This document shows, piece by piece, positions 45,590 through 53,549 of a DNA stretch of 64,000 nucleotides; the first letter of the stretch is position 1, and each line of letters begins with the position of its first letter. Origin of the DNA: Candidatus Micropelagos thuwalensis (GTDB taxonomy: Bacteria; Pseudomonadota; Alphaproteobacteria; RS24); NCBI RefSeq assembly GCF_000469155.1, contig NZ_AWXE01000005.1, forward strand, positions 22,501 to 86,500. Reading direction: 5' to 3'. Both the position numbers and the translations under genes were made by a program. Under the pieces are notes generated by a model. The model did not search any database. It was not told the DNA's origin and saw only the letters and a program-made list of their open reading frames with translations.

Positions 45590-46333
45590 ATGACGCAGAC
45601 TGTTATCTGCATAAAATGGGGCACACGTTACGGGTCGGAATATGTTAACCGTATGAACCGAGCCATTAAACGGTTTAATAAGCGCCCCACACGTCTTATA
45701 TGCTTCACAGACGACGTGAGTGGCATAGATGAAGATGTGATTACCCGTGACATCCCGCCTGTCAATTTACCCGATTACAAGCACAGCCCTCCATTCCGCA
45801 AAGTTACACTCTGGCAATATCCTCTCGGCGATCTTGAGGGGGATGTGCTTTATCTTGATTTGGATATTGTGATTTGCGGTGATTTAGACCGCTTTTTTGA
45901 TTATGAAAAAGGCGAATATTGCGTTGCCGAAAATTGGACACAAATTGGCAAAAATATTGGCAACACGTCTTGCTATCGTTTTCCTGTGGGTCGCTACAAG
46001 CATATCTTTGATGATTTCAATGCTGACCCTGCAAAAATTGAACAAAAATACGGCATCTCCCAGAAATACATCAGTGATGCTGTCGGCAAAATGGTTTACT
46101 GGCCTGCAGATTGGGTTGTGAGTTTCAAACACACCCTATTACCGCCATGGCCATTAAATTTTTTCAAAACATCCAAGCCCGGGCCGAACACATCGGTTGT
46201 TGCCTTTACCGGAAAACCCGACCCCGACGAGGCAATGGTTGGGGAATGGCCAGTTGAAGGGGAGCACTGGAAAAAAATCTATAAATTCACAAAGTCGTGC
46301 CCTTGGATTGAAGATTACTGGCTTGATAACTAA
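45590..46333 (+). CDS. Glycosyltransferase-like protein (GT-A fold, DxD motif)
   Basis: A 247-residue cytosolic protein. A Rossmann-like N-terminus is followed by VLYLDLDIVICGDLDRFF (about 86-103), which resembles the DxD nucleotide-sugar/metal site of glycosyltransferase families such as GT8. WPADWVVSFKHTLLPP and the conserved DPDEAMVG are typical of uncharacterised glycosyltransferase-like proteins in Alphaproteobacteria. It is an orphan with no sugar or LPS genes nearby. The tusA start follows ten bases after its stop, so the two may be co-transcribed. Substrate unknown. Confidence 0.75.
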   Translation: MTQTVICIKWGTRYGSEYVNRMNRAIKRFNKRPTRLICFTDDVSGIDEDVITRDIPPVNLPDYKHSPPFRKVTLWQYPLGDLEGDVLYLDLDIVICGDLDRFFDYEKGEYCVAENWTQIGKNIGNTSCYRFPVGRYKHIFDDFNADPAKIEQKYGISQKYISDAVGKMVYWPADWVVSFKHTLLPPWPLNFFKTSKPGPNTSVVAFTGKPDPDEAMVGEWPVEGEHWKKIYKFTKSCPWIEDYWLDN

Positions 46334-46343
46334 CCTCTCTGAC

Positions 46344-46571
46344 ATGTCAGAAAAAACGATACTAGATGCAACAGGGTTGAAGTGTCCTTTACCTGTTTTA
46401 AAACTCCGCAAAGCTCTCGAAGGGTTATCCATTGGGGAAAAGATTATTCTTCATGCCGATGACCCCGTCGCACCGCTAGATGTGGAGCATTTCTGCAAAA
46501 CTGCGGGGCATGATTTGCTTAATATTAATCAAAAAGAAAATTATGTAGAGTTTCTTATTTCAAAGAACTAA
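46344..46571 (+). CDS. TusA-family sulfurtransferase
   Basis: A 75-residue SirA/TusA-fold protein. The catalytic Cys is in GLKCPLPVLKLRKAL (Cys about residue 13). TusA relays persulfide sulfur from IscS to tRNA thiolation and molybdopterin synthesis. I chose the ATG at 46344, which gives the canonical N-terminus; a longer in-frame reading overlaps the upstream gene. The 3' end overlaps the convergent ArsC-like gene by four bases. Confidence 0.93.
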   Translation: MSEKTILDATGLKCPLPVLKLRKALEGLSIGEKIILHADDPVAPLDVEHFCKTAGHDLLNINQKENYVEFLISKN

Positions 46572-46918
46572 AGAGATTTCAAAATATCTTGTTGTTCATT
46601 CCTGAAGCCACATAGCACAAGCTTTTTGCCATCGTCAAAAATCGGGCGCTTCATCAAAGCCGGCTCGCTCATCACCAAAGACGCAGCATTTACCTCACTC
46701 AGACTTTCCTGAATAGAGGGGTCAATTTTGCGCCAGCTTGTGCCGCGACGATTAATAAGTTGCTCATGATCCAAAACAGAAAGCCAACGATTTAAATCTG
46801 ACTCAGAAAATCCGTCTTTTCTAATATCAAGGAATTGATGTTCAATATTTTCAGACTGCAACCAGTTCAGTGCTTTACGGCATGTATCACAATTTTTCAG
46901 ACCGTAAACTTTGAGCAT
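46568..46918 (-). CDS. ArsC/Spx-family thioredoxin-fold protein (YffB-like)
   Basis: A 116-residue protein with the ArsC/Spx fold. The N-terminal CxxC is in YGLKNCDTCRKALNWL (about 5-20). The C-terminal ALMKRPIFDDGKKLVLCGF matches the YffB/Spx subgroup, which binds glutathione and has no proven arsenate reductase activity. Its start overlaps the COQ4 stop by one base, so it is co-transcribed with COQ4. An arsenic role is not supported by neighbours. Confidence 0.88.
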   Translation of the reverse strand: MLKVYGLKNCDTCRKALNWLQSENIEHQFLDIRKDGFSESDLNRWLSVLDHEQLINRRGTSWRKIDPSIQESLSEVNAASLVMSEPALMKRPIFDDGKKLVLCGFRNEQQDILKSL

Positions 46919-47682
46919 TATTCAGCAGCGCTCAATTGCTCGCCAAAATGAATACCACCCTGACTCTGCGTGGTTTTAATAATATCGTGATAGATTTCAG
47001 GCGTCTGAATGTTCAGCATGCTTCGAACTTCATCAATCGGACGCGGTAAAACTTCTTTCCAGTCGACGCCTGGTAGCCAAACCATCTGACGCCCATGGCG
47101 GAAGCCTTCTCTGATTGCCGACCAAAATTTAAAACCTGGATTAAGTTTCTTAATATGCCGCCCGCCGAAAAGAATAATGAGTAAAAGCCCCGGATTGCCG
47201 AGCAGACGATACGTTACCGCCAACAGACATAATTCGCCTAACGCATCGCGCCCATATCCGGTCAATACATGCCATAAATCATGGGCATCGCGTTGCCGCT
47301 GGTGAAATTCGACTTCTTCATTTGTTAACTCACGCAATCCGCTCAGACCCTTTTCACTGGCGTCAACCAGACCTTCGGCGGAAATATTTTCACTCTTTAG
47401 AAAATCATAATAATGGTGGCCTAGACTTCCCTTCGGTAGAGAGGATAACCATTTTTGATCACACAAAAAATTCATCAAAGGCGGCTGTTCACGCAACGTG
47501 GAATAATTCGGATGCTTTTTGAATTTTTGCCAGCTTTTAGCGGATGACCGCTTCCCCAAAGCTTCGAGAATAATAAAAACTTGCGACGTATCTTCCTTAT
47601 CAGCAATGAGGCGCTTAACAGCCACAAAAGCGTCATAAAGACCTGGGACTTTGCCGGCGGACTTTGGGGAATTCCTATCCAT
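46918..47682 (-). CDS. COQ4-family ubiquinone biosynthesis protein
   Basis: A 254-residue COQ4 homologue. The metal-binding HDLWHVLTGYGRDALGE (about 136-152) matches the conserved HDxxH-x11-E motif. COQ4 organises the ubiquinone complex in mitochondria and was reported to act in C1 decarboxylation/hydroxylation of the ring. It is found in many Alphaproteobacteria. It forms a two-gene unit with the ArsC-like gene and is divergent from the FAD monooxygenase. UbiG and Coq7 are elsewhere in this window. Confidence 0.9.
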   Translation of the reverse strand: MDRNSPKSAGKVPGLYDAFVAVKRLIADKEDTSQVFIILEALGKRSSAKSWQKFKKHPNYSTLREQPPLMNFLCDQKWLSSLPKGSLGHHYYDFLKSENISAEGLVDASEKGLSGLRELTNEEVEFHQRQRDAHDLWHVLTGYGRDALGELCLLAVTYRLLGNPGLLLIILFGGRHIKKLNPGFKFWSAIREGFRHGRQMVWLPGVDWKEVLPRPIDEVRSMLNIQTPEIYHDIIKTTQSQGGIHFGEQLSAAE

Positions 47683-47811
47683 AACGAGCCTCTAAAGTTT
47701 TGTTAACGACAATTTAAGTGTTACGCGAAGAATTTCAATCAATTATCATGCAAGTTGGAGTTTTAATAAGGGTCAAATGCGCGCACCAATTTGGTCAAAG
47801 GTTTCGGGAAC

Positions 47812-48999
47812 GTGTCAAAATCTCAAAAACATAAAATCATGATCGTCGGCGCTGGTATTGCCGGCTTAACAGCTGCTTTATGTTTACGCCAATCGGGACA
47901 TGATGTGACCATTCTGGAACAAGCCTCCGCCATACAAGATATTGGCGCAGGGATTCAACTCAGCCCCAACGCATTACATGTACTGAACGCGATAGGCATC
48001 GGCGACAGGCTCGCGACCAAAGCCGATATTCCAGCAGAATTATCCATACGCGATTTCAAATCCGGCACACCCTTGCTCACCGAAAAAATGGGGTCAAGGT
48101 TTAACCACCGATACGGAGCAAGCTATTGGCATTGCCACCGTGCCGATTTAATCGAAACCCTTTTCAACGCAACTCAAAAAGCCGGAATCCAGATTTTATT
48201 CAACGAAAAAACCGAAAGCTATGAAGAAACCCCCGAGACAACTAGCATCAAAACCCATGCAGGAAAAAGCTTTACAGCAGACCTCCTTATCGGGGCAGAT
48301 GGCATATCCTCAAAAATTCGTGCCACACTTCTCCCCAATAGCATAGTTGATTTTACCGGCCAGATTGCCTGGCGGGGACTGGTACCAACCGAACGGTTAC
48401 AGACGCAGCCCCCCGAAGGGGTAAGCGTCTGGGTAGGGCCTGGAAAACATTTTGTTGGCTATCGCTTACGTCAAGCATCTCTGATGAATTTCATCGCCGT
48501 GGAAGAACGCGACGAATGGACGGAAGAAAACTGGATGCTTTTAGGCGACATCGAAAAATTGCGGACTGCTTTTGCGGGGTGGGACACCCCTGTCCAGGAT
48601 ATTCTCGCGGCCTGTGATGACACCTATCTATGGGGGCTGTTTGACAGACCTCCACCAAAAACATGGCATAGTTCCCGCGCGGTTTTGATTGGCGATGCCT
48701 GCCACCCCATTTTGCCGTTTATGGCGCAGGGCGCGGCCATGGCGATAGAAGACGCTTATGTTCTCGCTGCCTCTTTGGAAAACAACACATCCATTGCCGC
48801 CGCCCTTAAACTGTTTCAACAACAACGCCAAAAACGCGTAAGGAGTCTTTACGATATATCCCGCCGCAACGCCGCGCTTTATCACGCATCCGGTACCAAG
48901 GCCGTTGCCCGTAACTTCTTATTTGCCGGCACACGCATGTTTCCAAGGACACTTTCATTTCAGTTGGATAGGGTCTATGCCTATAATGTTACCGCGTGA
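47812..48999 (+). CDS. FAD-dependent monooxygenase (salicylate/3-hydroxybenzoate hydroxylase-like)
   Basis: A 395-residue group A flavoprotein hydroxylase. FAD-binding GxGxxG is in IMIVGAGIAGLTAALCLRQ (about 9-27), DG motif LLIGADGISSKIRATL (about 159-174), and the second FAD motif LIGDACHPILPFMAQGAAMAIED (about 292-314). DIGAGIQLSPNALHVL is typical of salicylate and 3-hydroxybenzoate 6-hydroxylase types rather than UbiH. The start is GTG 47812 with AAAGG upstream; TTG 47791 is an alternative. It is divergent from COQ4; a ring-hydroxylating role in ubiquinone synthesis is possible but unproven. Confidence 0.88.
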   Translation: MSKSQKHKIMIVGAGIAGLTAALCLRQSGHDVTILEQASAIQDIGAGIQLSPNALHVLNAIGIGDRLATKADIPAELSIRDFKSGTPLLTEKMGSRFNHRYGASYWHCHRADLIETLFNATQKAGIQILFNEKTESYEETPETTSIKTHAGKSFTADLLIGADGISSKIRATLLPNSIVDFTGQIAWRGLVPTERLQTQPPEGVSVWVGPGKHFVGYRLRQASLMNFIAVEERDEWTEENWMLLGDIEKLRTAFAGWDTPVQDILAACDDTYLWGLFDRPPPKTWHSSRAVLIGDACHPILPFMAQGAAMAIEDAYVLAASLENNTSIAAALKLFQQQRQKRVRSLYDISRRNAALYHASGTKAVARNFLFAGTRMFPRTLSFQLDRVYAYNVTA

Positions 49000-49054
49000 A
49001 GCACCTATTGAAGCGCGCTCGTCATTTTTTTATATTTGTGAAAAATAAGCGTCA

Positions 49055-49131
49055 GGTCCCGTAGCTCAGTAGGATAGAGCACCAGATTCCTAATCTGGGG
49101 GTCGCAGGTTCGAATCCTGCCGGGATCACCA
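49055..49131 (+). tRNA. tRNA-Arg (CCT anticodon)
   Basis: A 77-base cloverleaf. The acceptor stem GGTCCCG pairs with CGGGATC (one G-T). D arm has AGCTCAGTAGGATAGAGC; the anticodon stem CCAGA/TCTGG flanks a TTCCTAA loop giving anticodon CCT; the T arm contains GGTTCGAATCC; CCA is encoded. There is no intron. Confidence 0.97.
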
Positions 49132-49160
49132 ACGTTAAAGTGGGCTAAACTTCCCAAAAA

Positions 49161-49188
49161 TTGACCAGTATACATGATGCGTGATAAT
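49161..49188 (+). promoter_or_regulatory. Sigma-70-like promoter of the structured RNA / small membrane protein unit
   Basis: TTGACC (49161-49166), a 16-base spacer and GATAAT (49183-49188, within TGATAAT). Transcription would start near 49195, about 230 bases before the ATG at 49425. It lies 30 bases after the tRNA-Arg end. Confidence 0.6.
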
Positions 49189-49194
49189 TCTGAT

Positions 49195-49424
49195 TAAGGG
49201 CTAGTCAATGGCAAGCTCCGGGGCTTCAAAACCTCTTGCAGACCGGCAGCGGTGACATCTGCCGATATCAAACTGTCACCTCGACTATCTTGTCGGGGTG
49301 GCGGCGTTATAAAACAACCGCTCGCGGTAAAAGCGCTGCGGTCATGTCTGCATGACTTTTGAACACCCCGGCACCAGTGCGAAAGCGTTGGTGACGTTTG
49401 TTTTAACTTCAAGCAGAGGCCGCA
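49195..49424 (+). ncRNA. Candidate structured RNA (independent ncRNA or long 5' leader)
   Basis: No coding potential is convincing here, but several nested helices are present. P0 GGTGACA/TGTCACC (49251-49257/49274-49280). P1 TGTCGGGGTG/CACCCCGGCA, 10 bp (49291-49300/49364-49373). Inside it, P2 GCGGCG/CGCTGC (49301-49306/49334-49339) enclosing hairpin ACCG-CTCG-CGGT (49317-49328), and P4 GTCATG-TCTG-CATGAC (49341-49356). P5 CACCAGTGC-GAAA-GCGTTGGTG (49372-49393) is a 9-bp stem with a GNRA tetraloop that shares two bases with P1. A good promoter precedes it and a membrane-protein ORF follows 31 bases after P5. I cannot match it to tmRNA, RNase P, SRP, 6S or a known riboswitch by eye. Confidence 0.5.
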
Positions 49425-49607
49425 ATGGACGACTACAAATTTTCAGCCGACTTACTCAATAAATACACTCAACTTACACCTTGGGTGCAAGCATTTATCG
49501 GATTAGGGGTGTGTGGCGTATTTTTGGGATTTTTCTATTTCTTTAAAGAGACAATGATTGCTGTAACAAAACCATTCTACAAAAAGCTGGAGACGCCACA
49601 AAAGTAA
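49425..49607 (+). CDS. 60-residue single-pass membrane protein, unknown
   Basis: A short ORF with one strong hydrophobic helix (about 25-43, FIGLGVCGVFLGFFYFFKE) and a basic C-terminal tail. The N-terminal part is soluble and contains YTQLTPWVQ. AGAGG lies about eight bases before the ATG. It is preceded by the structured region 49195-49424, whose promoter could serve it. I do not recognise a family; a phage holin-like or toxin-like protein is conceivable, but no phage genes are nearby. Confidence 0.6.
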   Translation: MDDYKFSADLLNKYTQLTPWVQAFIGLGVCGVFLGFFYFFKETMIAVTKPFYKKLETPQK

Positions 49608-49629
49608 GAGCTATAAGACGGAAAAAAGG

Positions 49630-49944
49630 TCAGCACTTGACCGTACCGGGACAGTTAAAACCAGGTTCCATGGTCATTTTCTTATCCATCAGTTTCCACC
49701 CAGCGCGTTTATAAACACAATTCCAGAGACCATCTTTTTTGGACTTGTCTTTTAATCTGCACAGAGAAGGTTTTGAGGAGGGTGTCACGGCGCGACGCCG
49801 GCAATAGCGTCTGCCATCATCATTTTTATCATCTGACCATAATTCGCAATGCGTTGTTGCCGTACCGACAAAAGTTATACCCCCAGCAATAACGGATTGT
49901 GGGAAATATAGTGCAAGAATAAAAAACAAAATGAATCGACGCAT
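49630..49944 (-). CDS. Small secreted cysteine-rich protein, unknown
   Basis: A 104-residue protein from the ATG at 49944 (MRRFILFFILALYF), giving a classical signal peptide cut near residue 20 (VIA-GGITF). The mature chain of about 85 residues is basic and has six cysteines (HCELW, RYCRR, LCRL, WNCVY, FNCPG and a terminal KC), probably three disulfides in the periplasm or outside. I do not recognise a family. A longer reading adds 11 residues (49977). It is an orphan gene converging on the 60-residue gene. Confidence 0.65.
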   Translation of the reverse strand: MRRFILFFILALYFPQSVIAGGITFVGTATTHCELWSDDKNDDGRRYCRRRAVTPSSKPSLCRLKDKSKKDGLWNCVYKRAGWKLMDKKMTMEPGFNCPGTVKC

Positions 49945-50098
49945 AACTGTACCTATCTGGTAACTAATATAGGCCAATTAGATTAAGGAACTATTAAATA
50001 TTAGGATTATGCGTAAATTAATCGCCAAATCTGGCGCTTATCATGATTTTTATCCACTTTAGACATTTAAAACCGGATTTATGGCTTCAATATTAAAA

Positions 50099-50185
50099 TG
50101 GTGCCCTCGGCCAGACTCGAACTGGCACGCCCGTGAAGGCAACGGATTTTGAATCCGTCGCGTCTACCAATTCCGCCACGAGGGC
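50099..50185 (-). tRNA. tRNA-Leu (CAA anticodon)
   Basis: An 87-base class II tRNA on the minus strand. The acceptor stem GCCCTCG pairs with CGAGGGC. The anticodon stem ACGGA/TCCGT flanks a loop with anticodon CAA. There is a long variable arm (TGCCTTCACGGGCGT), the T arm has GTTCGAGTC, and CCA is encoded. A weak hairpin CGCCA-GATT-TGGCG (50023-50036) about 60 bases downstream may end its transcript. Confidence 0.96.
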
Positions 50186-50341
50186 CGTGCAGGCGTGCAA
50201 TATAACAGAAAGTTTCTTCACGTCCAGAATCACTTTCAGATGCCCTGCCCCCATTATTTTCTCGATAAAATCATCCCTTCTCACACCCTCAATTCTCTAA
50301 ATTATCTTTGCAAATCCTTGATAAATGATTAGGTTCTGGGC

Positions 50342-51334
50342 ATGCGACAGACGATGAAAAGGCTCTATGAATGGTGTCGGTCTCTAGCCAACCACGCTTA
50401 CGCCAAATGGGCTTTGGCAGGTATTTCATTCATTGAAAGCTCGTTCTTTCCTGTGCCACCGGATGTGATGCTCGCGCCTATGGTGCTGGCTGATAAATCA
50501 CGCGCATGGTCTTACGCTTTTATCTGCACACTCGCCTCTGTTTTGGGCGCCATTCTCGGTTATATCATCGGGCGTTATCTTTTTGAGTTTATTGGGACGC
50601 CAATTCTGGGAGCTTATAGCGCCCAAGCCGCATTTGAAAAATTCACCGGTTTTTATGCCGACTGGGGGTTCTGGATTGTGATTATCAGTGCCATCAGCTT
50701 TGTTCCTTTTAAAGTTGCCACCATTGCAAGCGGCGTTGTCGCTATGGAACCGATAAGTTTTTTGGTGGCCTGTATTGTCGGACGCGCCATAAGATTTTAT
50801 GGGGTGACGGCTGCTTTAATGGTCGATCTTCGCCTTTGGTTATTTCAACCTTTGCGCCGTGGCATTATGATCAGCCTAGGTAGTTTTGGTATCCTCGCGG
50901 TTGTTTTCGCTTTTGAACATCTTATAGGGCTCGCCCCGTGTCCGCTGTGCCTTAATCAGCGTATTGCTTTTTATCTGGCTATGCCACTCGGGCTTTTGGC
51001 CGCTTTGTCAGCAACAAAAAAACCAAGCCTCTCAACCGTCAGCTTTATCGCTCTGACGCTCATATTCTTAGCCAATTCAGCCTATGGGGGTTATCACGCA
51101 GGCATTGAGTGGGGCTACTGGCCCGGACCTGCCTCATGTGCGGGCAACACTTTCGAAGTCACAAATATTGAAGAGCTGATTTTATCGCTTGAAAAGGGTG
51201 CGCCCCCTTCATGCAGTGAAGCCCCATGGCGGTTATTTGGTTTGTCTCTGGCGGGATATAATATGCTAGCAAGTCTGGGCCTTGCTTTGCTGGCTGGTTT
51301 TCCTATTTTATATAGGAGTCAGGAAACATCATGA
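50342..51334 (+). CDS. Fusion of a DedA/YqaA-type membrane domain with DsbB
   Basis: A 330-residue polytopic membrane protein in two parts. Residues 1-165 are a YqaA/DedA (VTT) domain: SFIESSFFPVPPDVMLAPMVL, internal GYIIGRY and FVPFKVATIASG, ending GRAIRFYGVTAALM. Residues from about 170 are DsbB: helix 1 then GLAPCPLCLNQRIAFYL (redox CxxC about 201-204), and the second Cys pair in GPASCAGN and PPSCSEAPWRLFGLSLAGYN. DsbB reoxidises DsbA and passes electrons to ubiquinone. In relatives these are usually separate adjacent genes. The last YqaA helix seems missing or merged into DsbB helix 1. The stop overlaps the coq7 start (ATGA). Confidence 0.88.
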   Translation: MRQTMKRLYEWCRSLANHAYAKWALAGISFIESSFFPVPPDVMLAPMVLADKSRAWSYAFICTLASVLGAILGYIIGRYLFEFIGTPILGAYSAQAAFEKFTGFYADWGFWIVIISAISFVPFKVATIASGVVAMEPISFLVACIVGRAIRFYGVTAALMVDLRLWLFQPLRRGIMISLGSFGILAVVFAFEHLIGLAPCPLCLNQRIAFYLAMPLGLLAALSATKKPSLSTVSFIALTLIFLANSAYGGYHAGIEWGYWPGPASCAGNTFEVTNIEELILSLEKGAPPSCSEAPWRLFGLSLAGYNMLASLGLALLAGFPILYRSQETS

Positions 51335-51876
51335 ATATGGCAACATCTAAATCCAGCAAAACAGAACAAATGATCCGCGTCGATCATGCCGGTGAGCATG
51401 GCGCTGTCAGTATTTATCGCGGACAACTGGCTGTATTTGGTAAAGCCGACTCGAAAGCGCAAATCGCAGAACTCGTCAAACATATGGCTGAACAAGAGCA
51501 AACGCACATGGACAGCTTTGACAAGCTCATCCTAGAAAATAACATACGTCCTACGGTCCTCGCACCATTATGGGATGCGGCTGGATTTACCCTTGGCGCT
51601 GTGACAGCTCTGATGGGTGAAAAAGCAGCCATGGCTTGCACTGCGGCTGTTGAGGAAGTCATCGACACCCATTACGCCGATCAGATTGAAGAGCTTGAAA
51701 GAACCGGCGACGAAACCGAGCTATGTGACATGATTAAAGAGTTTCGCGCAGATGAAGCCGAGCATCGTCATACCGCAATCGAACATGGCGCTGAAGATAT
51801 GAAAGGATATGAAGTCTTGAGATCCTTGATACGTTTTGGCTGTCGCTCAGCAATTAAAATTTCTGAAAAAATTTAA
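51331..51876 (+). CDS. coq7: Demethoxyubiquinone hydroxylase (Coq7/UbiF-type di-iron monooxygenase)
   Basis: A 181-residue carboxylate-bridged di-iron hydroxylase of the Coq7 family, adding the C6 hydroxyl in ubiquinone synthesis. Iron ligands are visible: VDHAGEHGAV (Glu about 21), EQEQTHMD (Glu and His about 53-56), AAVEEVIDTHY (about 106-116) and ADEAEHRHTA (about 141-150). ATGA overlap with the DedA-DsbB gene implies coupled translation, linking a quinone-using oxidoreductase with quinone synthesis. Confidence 0.95.
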   Translation: MNMATSKSSKTEQMIRVDHAGEHGAVSIYRGQLAVFGKADSKAQIAELVKHMAEQEQTHMDSFDKLILENNIRPTVLAPLWDAAGFTLGAVTALMGEKAAMACTAAVEEVIDTHYADQIEELERTGDETELCDMIKEFRADEAEHRHTAIEHGAEDMKGYEVLRSLIRFGCRSAIKISEKI

Positions 51877-52482
51877 CTACGGCTGAAGCTCACTATCCCA
51901 ATAGAGATAATCTTGCCAACTTTCGTGCAGAAAGTTTGGCGGAAACCGCCTGCCAATATCGTGCAATTCATAAACGGTTGGCTGGCGTGGTTTTTGCTTC
52001 GGGAACATTGAAGCTTCTTTGCAAAGCCGCCCACCCTTTTTGAGATTACATGGCGAGCAAGCTGCAACAACATTTTCCCATGTGGTTTGCCCACCAACCC
52101 GGCGCGGCACAACATGATCAAATGTTAAATCCTGATCTGAACCGCAATATTGACAAGCAAAGCCATCGCGTAAAAAGACATTAAATCTCGTAAAGGCCGG
52201 ATATTGCGGCGGCTTTACATAGTTTTTAAGCGAAACAACGCTCGGCAAGCTTATGGCTGTCGTTGGGGAGTGAACTTTGGTTTCGTATTCGGAAACAATA
52301 TTCACCCGATCGAGAAACACGGCTTTAAGTGTATCCTGCCATGCCCAAAGTGAGAGTGGGTAATAGCTTAGGGGGCGGTAATCTGCATTGAGAACCAGTG
52401 CAGGACAACTTTCTGGATTTTGAAAACGACTGTGATCGGAAGTGAGAAAAGTCAGGGACTTTCTATCCATCAAGCGCTGCAT
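51877..52482 (-). CDS. HNH endonuclease family protein
   Basis: A 201-residue HNH nuclease. The zinc ribbon and ββα-metal core read CQYCGSDQDLTFDHVVPRR and AACSPCNLKKGGR (about 119-160). The N-terminal PALVLNADYRPLSYYPLSLW is diagnostic of a widespread chromosomal family found in most Alphaproteobacteria as a single gene, not part of a restriction system. Its stop is adjacent to the coq7 stop. Biological role unknown. Confidence 0.9.
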   Translation of the reverse strand: MQRLMDRKSLTFLTSDHSRFQNPESCPALVLNADYRPLSYYPLSLWAWQDTLKAVFLDRVNIVSEYETKVHSPTTAISLPSVVSLKNYVKPPQYPAFTRFNVFLRDGFACQYCGSDQDLTFDHVVPRRVGGQTTWENVVAACSPCNLKKGGRLCKEASMFPKQKPRQPTVYELHDIGRRFPPNFLHESWQDYLYWDSELQP

Positions 52483-52661
52483 AACCTTAAAACTCCCTCT
52501 TTGTATGACCGATGTCGTAAGACTGAAGACGAATCAATGTCTCCTTATGATTATAGAAGACTTAACAAACATGTCATTATTCTTACAAATTTCAAACAAA
52601 ATGCAAAATTTCCACCCATTTTGTAATTTGCCTGGTTTTGTGCGCCCTATATAGTGTCTGG

Positions 52662-53549
52662 ATGACAACGCAAGACACGGCTCATATCACCCGATTTGCC
52701 CCGAGCCCGAACGGCAGGTTGCATCTCGGACATGCTTATTCGGCATTAATGGCTCATAAACTCGCCGGGTCAGGTCGATTTATTCTGCGTATTGAAGATA
52801 TTGATTTGGGGCGGCGGCGACAGCATTTCATCGATGCCATTTATGAAGATTTAGCTTGGCTGGGACTTTCATGGCCAACCCCTGTGATGATTCAATCCAG
52901 TCGCTTTGATATTTACAAGACAGCACTCAACCGGCTGAGAGAGATGGAGGTTGTCTACCCGTGCTGGGCAAGCCGGGCAGATATTCGGGATTACATCAAT
53001 ACCCAACAAGGTGGTCGTGAAGCATGGCCTGTAGATCCAGATGGGGCGGCGATTTATCCAGGCTTATACAAAGATATTTCTCCCTCAAAAAGAGACGCCA
53101 TGATGTGGGAAGGCGGCAATTATGCATGGCGGCTGGACAGCGAAAAAGCTGCCGCAATTGCCAGACAGAAAAACGGGGTTCTTAGTTATTTTGAAGCCTC
53201 TCAACAAGAAAATGTTGACATCAACCCTGGCCTCTATGGTGATGTTATTCTTGCGCGTAAAGATATACCGACCAGCTATCATCTAAGTGTTGTTGTGGAT
53301 GACGCCGCCCAAGACATTTCTTTGGTCACGCGTGGGATGGATTTACAGGGAGCGACCCATATTCATCGTATTTTGCAAATCTTGCTGGAATATCCTGAAC
53401 CAGAGTATTATCACCATGAGCTTGTTCGGGAAGCAGATGGTCGCCGCTTGTCAAAGCGCGCCGGTGATATAGGTATTGATTATTACCGAGACCAGGGGTA
53501 TGGACCGGAGCAACTTATTGGCGAGTGCCTACCCCCACTTACGGGATAA
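52662..53549 (+). CDS. gluQ: tRNA glutamyl-Q(34) synthetase (GluQRS)
   Basis: A 295-residue glutamyl-tRNA synthetase paralogue lacking the anticodon-binding domain. It attaches glutamate to queuosine 34 of tRNA-Asp. HIGH-type motif is RFAPSPNGRLHLGHAYSAL (HLGH), and the KMSKS-type motif is LSKRAGD near residue 275. A CW/Cys site (YPCWASR) is present. I chose the ATG at 52662, giving MTTQDTAHITRF; eight upstream codons are an alternative. It is followed 16 bases later by the HIG1-like gene. Confidence 0.94.
   Translation: MTTQDTAHITRFAPSPNGRLHLGHAYSALMAHKLAGSGRFILRIEDIDLGRRRQHFIDAIYEDLAWLGLSWPTPVMIQSSRFDIYKTALNRLREMEVVYPCWASRADIRDYINTQQGGREAWPVDPDGAAIYPGLYKDISPSKRDAMMWEGGNYAWRLDSEKAAAIARQKNGVLSYFEASQQENVDINPGLYGDVILARKDIPTSYHLSVVVDDAAQDISLVTRGMDLQGATHIHRILQILLEYPEPEYYHHELVREADGRRLSKRAGDIGIDYYRDQGYGPEQLIGECLPPLTG

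Follow-up and report, generated by a model that had tools for sequence, protein, structure and literature searches.

One close described counterpart of the locus analyzed here is C4, the antisense RNA of phages P1 and P7 (Rfam RF01695, clan CL00128). In the phage P1 record, the parts follow one another as promoters, a1, b1, c4 RNA (77 nt), a2, b2, icd (73 aa) and ant1. The c4 RNA folds into P1, a short P2 and P3; b' occupies the loop of P3, and a' the linker. According to a later study that refers back to the original work, RNase P releases C4 from a longer transcript by cutting where P1 begins at its 5' end, and the a' segment determines the specificity of C4 (PMC5320573, citing Hartmann 1995 and Citron and Schuster 1990). 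In Acinetobacter baumannii, a single genome carries many C4-like Group 1 sRNAs, which match the Rfam C4 motif and differ in the a' segment (PMC5320573).

A second described RNA is sRNA-Xcc1 (RF02221), an 88-nt RNA of Xanthomonas campestris, which Rfam 15 places outside the C4 clan. Previous work has treated it as an RNA linked to virulence and controlled by HrpG/HrpX, and as vesicle cargo (PMC12189769). A 2025 study lists Xylella matches to sRNA-Xcc1, C4 and isrK next to one another and treats sRNA-Xcc1 as a vesicle RNA with plant targets.

We analyzed a 64,000-nt stretch of Candidatus Micropelagos thuwalensis DNA (hereafter the window; all positions refer to it). A sequence-only reading had singled out a structured region between tRNA-Arg and a gene for a 60-residue membrane protein, proposed that it was either an independent small RNA or a long regulatory leader, and named no class. 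Our analysis favors both at once: the region is probably the leader of the 60-aa membrane-protein gene and carries within it a small C4-type antisense RNA of the sRNA-Xcc1 group. The missing class is supported as sRNA-Xcc1, C4-like in layout.

Locus organization

The locus runs from tRNA-Arg through a promoter-like sequence, a hairpin, a1/b1, the RNA core, T2 and a ribosome-binding site to the 60-aa ORF (Table 1). The promoter noticed by eye is where it was described. It is weak taken alone, since the 1.4-kb region has 4 such sites compared with 2.6 in shuffles; transcription would be expected to start near 49195. A coding function for 49195–49424 was rejected: as the sequence-only reading had held, there is no convincing ORF there. 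Reading the ORFs of 46000–53000, we recognized no prophage genes.

Table 1. Parts of the leader and its surroundings, in window coordinates
Feature	Position	Strand	Basis or remark
Promoter-like TTGACC-N16-GATAAT	49161–49188	+	Consensus match only (10/12 positions)
5' hairpin of leader	49198–49218	+	Fold
a1/b1 element	49220–49243	+	G-rich hairpin 49220–49235, then b1
a1 TTCAAAA	49225–49231	+	In loop of G-rich hairpin
b1 TGCAGAC	49237–49243	+	3' of G-rich hairpin
Anti-P1 hairpin, 13 bp, alternative to P1/P2	49273–49304	+	Lowest-energy fold
Antisense RNA core, about 81 nt	49292–49372	+	RF02221 match, model R1, covariation
Core P1	49292–49300/49364–49372	+	Helix of antisense RNA core
Core P2	49301–49306/49334–49339	+	Helix of antisense RNA core
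Core inner hairpin	49317–49328	+	Within antisense RNA core
Core P3	49341–49345/49352–49356	+	Helix of antisense RNA core
b' GTCTGCA	49346–49352	+	P3 loop and next base; complementary to b1
a' TTTTGAA	49357–49363	+	Linker between P3 and P1; complementary to a1
ACCA, directly 3' of P1	49373–49376	+	RCCA motif (putative role)
T2: terminator-like hairpin 49372–49393 and T-rich tail	49372–49402	+	Overlaps P1 end
Ribosome-binding region CTTCAAGCAGAGG	49407–49419	+	Candidate a2/b2 TTCAA, GCAGA; not above chance
60-aa ORF, one hydrophobic segment	49425–49607	+	Presumed controlled gene

Inspection of the sequence finds every stem of the earlier description in place. P1, drawn there as 49291–49300 with 49364–49373, has 10 bp with one G-T; P2 begins at the next base, 49301; and P5 (49372–49393) has 9 bp, a GAAA loop and two bases in common with P1. 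The stems had been called compatible or nearly so, which holds only in part: all are present, but not all are compatible, and the leader as a whole reaches its lowest energy with a different set.

The ACCA that follows P1 may act as an RCCA motif of the kind recognized by RNase P. RCC follows P1 in 76 of 155 alphaproteobacterial copies, and RCCA in 43. T2-like hairpins stand behind the core in 52 of 154 alphaproteobacterial copies (2.2 in shuffles), compared with 1 of 49 others. The overlap of T2 with the end of P1 and ACCA may couple termination to processing.

Membership and distribution of the family

An Rfam search, as had been suggested for identifying the region, returns only tRNA-Arg and tRNA-Leu at gathering thresholds. 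With permissive filters, RF02221 matches 49292–49380 at 47.6 bits (E 2.6e-7), below the curated cut-off of 53 bits. The match is full-length (model positions 1–87 of 87) and includes P1, P2 and P3. We classify the window element from this match as a divergent member of the sRNA-Xcc1 family. The two have the same P1/P2/P3 order and a1/b1 upstream, and the model begins at the first base of P1, as does the window core.

Of 61 related genomes, 22 have below-cut-off matches to RF02221; the 14 control genomes have none. Across the phylum, 55 of 398 genomes have matches, above the cut-off in 39 of those. A covariance model built from an alignment of 39 copies (model R1) scores the window element at 69.6 bits. 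R1 detects the element in 21 of the 28 genomes of the family (6 copies in the genome of the window) and, class-wide, in 35 of 289 genomes, which have up to 16 copies each. We collected 204 copies with their flanks. A loose pattern search of genome contigs gave four scattered matches, and a pattern scan of viral contigs for the alphaproteobacterial form of P2 gave none.

Several observations concern the genomic setting of the copies. Cores occur in tandem or close succession, about 100–500 bases apart, in G022, G027, G008 and G026 (L011/L048, L133, L137, L127). In several genomes of the family, copies adjoin the same aminotransferase gene (L018, L019, L021, L022, L023, L025, L037, L050); the small genes there differ, as though genes were being exchanged at this place. 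We also considered an integron attC site: by eye, some T1 hairpins carry GTTAGGC-like boxes, and Xanthomonas copies lie in integron cassettes.

Relation to C4

Phages carry the family too. An RF02221 copy lies directly upstream of the antirepressor gene ant in Escherichia phage Rac-SA53 (78.1 bits), and another in Vibrio phage VPBES (61.4 bits) precedes an 80-residue ORF and a DNA-binding gene; a1/b1 and a2/b2 are legible in both. BLAST of a SymE-linked copy against phages gave no match.

The likeness of the window to C4 lies in its layout. Both have the order a1, b1, RNA and small ORF, with the ORF directly downstream (60 aa at 49425 here, 73 aa for icd in P1), and both RNAs consist of three helices, the P3 loop carrying b' and the linker that leads into the 3' strand of P1 carrying a'. 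As in the family described here, a'/b' of C4 are copy-specific (PMC5320573). The window element differs from C4 in its shorter P1 and longer P2 with an A-rich internal loop. It also lies outside any recognizable prophage, and no antirepressor gene follows it in the window.

Covariance models do not bridge the two groups. RF01695 has no match in 701 bases around the element at E 10, none in the window's genome at E 1 and none above cut-off in the family of genomes; as a positive control, it scores P1 c4 at 68.8 bits. Model R1 in turn fails to detect P1 c4 (6.2 bits). C4 and the sRNA-Xcc1 group therefore cannot be joined by these models alone. That the element works like C4 is well supported in layout, whereas by the Rfam definition it is not a C4. 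Common descent of the two is plausible. The present copies likewise differ from Group 1 sRNAs of A. baumannii, in that they go with sRNA-Xcc1 and precede identifiable genes, with matching a1/b1.

Two sub-threshold matches were seen along the way. One is a c4-2 match of 34.8 bits (L101 2890–2958, minus strand), roughly 1.3 kb away from an sRNA-Xcc1 copy with a P22_AR_N antirepressor gene behind it. The other is to the isrK model (RF01394), which scores 35.1 bits over the stretch from b1 to the terminator in phage P1 (L232 331–412); this suggests isrK as a leader of the a1/b1 type.

Covariation and folding

The sequence-only reading had named a lack of covariation in relatives as a refuting result; the covariation is in fact strong. 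In the alignment of 39 copies, 98% of cells in P1 and P2 are paired, and of the 15 pairs in these two helices 11 vary at both positions. Counting P3 as well, 13 of 19 pairs do so, a level that none of 500 shuffles reaches; structures slid along the alignment are 32–51% paired. Because the covariance model first used to collect the relatives includes P1 and P2, these figures are biased towards intact stems; the long-range a/b pairings lie outside that model.

The strong structure suspected by eye is borne out on the plus strand. Positions 49195–49424 fold at -95.5 kcal/mol, compared with -73.1 ± 4.8 for dinucleotide shuffles (z -4.7, with no shuffle of 200 folding as well); for the minus strand, z is -2.75. 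In the lowest-energy fold of the whole leader, a1 pairs with a' and b1 with b', the anti-P1 hairpin forms and the probability of P1 is about 0. The predicted pairing probabilities of a1/b1 with a'/b' in the uncut leader are 0.84–1.0. Enforcing the core fold on the leader gives -82.2 kcal/mol, a cost of 13.3 kcal/mol; the core alone folds at -38.7 kcal/mol. The switch that had been suspected is thus present at the level of sequence, because a1/b1 and the P1/P3 fold compete for a'/b'.

Copy-specific pairing

A small G-rich hairpin stands upstream of the core in 172 of 200 copies, compared with 96 in shuffles. Its loop (a1) and the bases that follow (b1) are complementary to the linker (a') and the P3 loop (b'). 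The window pairings comprise 7 + 7 bp, the top score of 103 leaders for the window core.

To score complementarity across copies, we used a two-block test that sets the cognate leader against all other leaders. At least 12 matched bases were found for 70 of 103 dereplicated alphaproteobacterial copies, compared with 5.4% of non-cognate pairs, and for 25 of 31 other copies, compared with 8.4%. Within genomes, a copy's own leader is strictly best in 95 of 144 cases (33 expected), in 91 of 145 by an independent scoring and in 15 of 17 in the copy-richest genome. Several scorings were used, all with the same direction. The first relied on RNA duplex energies; its result was significant but driven mainly by G+C content, and alignment-type and two-block tests took its place.

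The ortholog of the window element in a sister species (G003) is 81% identical. Its a1/a' reads TTAAGAA/TTCTTAA where the window has TTCAAAA/TTTTGAA; b1/b' also differ, and both still pair. Because own leaders fit best and pairing survives these changes, the a/b code is copy-specific on a constant scaffold, which sets the element apart from an ordinary leader.

These results bear on a purely cis-acting attenuator or riboswitch, which would release no separate RNA: alternative folds would set termination at T2 or access to the ribosome-binding site, perhaps with the A-rich internal loop of P2 sensing a ligand. The uncut leader is indeed strongly bistable, and T2, which overlaps P1, is typical of the alphaproteobacterial branch. 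However, a ligand sensor does not explain why a'/b' vary among copies of one genome while the scaffold is constant, and the downstream genes belong to unrelated families, ill-suited to one ligand. In other proteobacteria, 36 of 48 copies have a terminator, T1, between a1/b1 and the core (2.4 in shuffles), so the two can sit on separate RNAs; a similar hairpin and T run follows b1 in phage P1. sRNA-Xcc1 itself is a discrete RNA (PMC2996969). We therefore regard the cis-acting alternative as unlikely, a riboswitch being disfavored by the unrelated genes and the divergent specificity segments.

Downstream genes and their ribosome-binding sites

In phages and other proteobacteria, the next gene (antirepressor, SymE) has the a1/b1 targets repeated at its ribosome-binding site. 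The repeats in other proteobacteria surround the Shine-Dalgarno sequence, as in CCGAAAA-GGAG-CAAACAG-CC-ATG at L110, and 14 of 31 copies match, compared with 1.7% of non-cognates (z 10.1 in the site itself). Alphaproteobacterial copies differ from sRNA-Xcc1 elsewhere in often having T2 and in a weaker site match, shifted to the linker/P1 edge (z 6.7; P3/linker z 5.4; control segment 1.3). The 3' strand of P1 alone matches the Shine-Dalgarno sequence weakly, and the match becomes clear once the linker edge is included. The window site has 10 matched bases, not above non-cognate sites, and 25 of 500 shuffles reach 10. We therefore make no claim to a2/b2 in the window, whose site lacks the support seen for C4, and infer control of the 60-aa protein; whether its gene is the controlled one we would call evenly balanced.

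For 60 of 204 copies, the criteria of this analysis identify no clear ORF downstream, which counts against the leader interpretation. SymE, Bro-N, KilA-N, P22_AR_N and Rha genes lie downstream of some copies. In one genome (G047), 13 of 17 copies precede paralogs of a single family whose N-terminus, GSITVEAIVMLGLIASLTPILYKHV, looks prepilin-like (L017, L041, L056, L162–L166, L168–L172); each of these copies has a private a/b code.

The 60-aa protein has one hydrophobic segment, no Pfam match and no convincing relative in PHROGs. The locus might be a type I toxin–antitoxin module in which the antisense RNA restrains this protein as a toxin; such a reading narrows the main explanation and does not oppose it. 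Such loci, symE/symR among them, share antisense control of a small protein, although SymR is encoded opposite its target and the window RNA lies upstream on the same strand. The single hydrophobic segment would suit a toxin, Pfam names SymE, found after some copies, as a type I toxin, and in integron cassettes of Xanthomonas symE is preceded by sRNA-Xcc1 (PMC12444791). Against this, known toxins are a minority of downstream genes, just 25 of 77 small downstream ORFs look membrane-spanning, and the window protein has no known relative. On balance we find the toxin reading doubtful.

RNA and ORF also share their fate within the genus, which speaks for the main explanation and would suit a toxin–antitoxin pair as well. 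G000 and G003 have both in intact form. Stop codons interrupt the ORF of G004, whose RNA is degenerate (28.2 bits), and G001 has a broken ORF and no longer has the RNA. This decay, the adjoining tRNA gene and fast change of the ORF (13 synonymous differences between G000 and G003, compared with 28 in amino-acid-changing codons) could instead mark a remnant that arrived with a mobile element beside the tRNA gene and is now functionless in the window species. With RNA and ORF intact in two genomes and a1:a' and b1:b' still pairing despite changed letters, a functionless remnant is quite improbable.

Two neighboring observations concern other ORFs. G003 encodes a second protein, 50% identical to the 60-aa protein, at C30:44083–44238 (L241), with no RNA model match nearby. 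On the minus strand of the window, 49630–49977 holds a 115-residue ORF with a signal-like N-terminus, several cysteines and no Pfam match; it persists in members of the genus in which the RNA and the 60-aa ORF are decaying.

Proposed mechanism

For the leader with an embedded antisense RNA, we propose the following. A single transcript would start near 49195 and carry a1/b1 (49225–49243), then the RNA of about 81 nt (49292–49372). RNase P would free this RNA at the 5' end of P1, as in phage P1, and the freed RNA would pair in trans with a1/b1 of new transcripts. In many relatives, it would also pair with the ribosome-binding site of the next gene. The next gene would thus be kept off unless the antisense RNA runs short. 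In the uncut leader, a1/b1 would pair with a'/b' in cis and block P1, making the leader bistable and letting a1/b1 in cis control the folding of the core. Of this scheme, computation establishes the structure and its covariation, the copy-specific complementarity and the occurrence of the layout in phages and chromosomes; transcription, RNase P processing, action in trans, the sign of regulation and the 60-aa ORF as target are predictions.

Implications

The sRNA-Xcc1 family is already known, and its C4-like layout appears to have gone unstated, although it may have been noticed earlier. We found no statement of it in the literature searched, mostly outside the subscription journals, and no paper there uses both 'sRNA-Xcc1' and 'antirepressor'.

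Each sRNA-Xcc1 copy gains a testable target in the a1/b1 upstream of it, and often a second one in the ribosome-binding site of the following gene, and genes of unknown function gain a predicted regulator. Together the copies would provide an extensive collection of antisense pairs, naturally orthogonal and built on a common scaffold, spread over chromosomes and phages. More tentatively, it is possible, though we think it the less probable outcome, that in small-genome alphaproteobacteria a phage-type antisense immunity RNA became a set of orthogonal locks, one per gene, each with its own a/b code. If this is true, sRNA-Xcc1 would be an RNA of the same orthogonal-lock kind, and with such RNAs a cell could switch individual members of a gene family off or on independently of one another.
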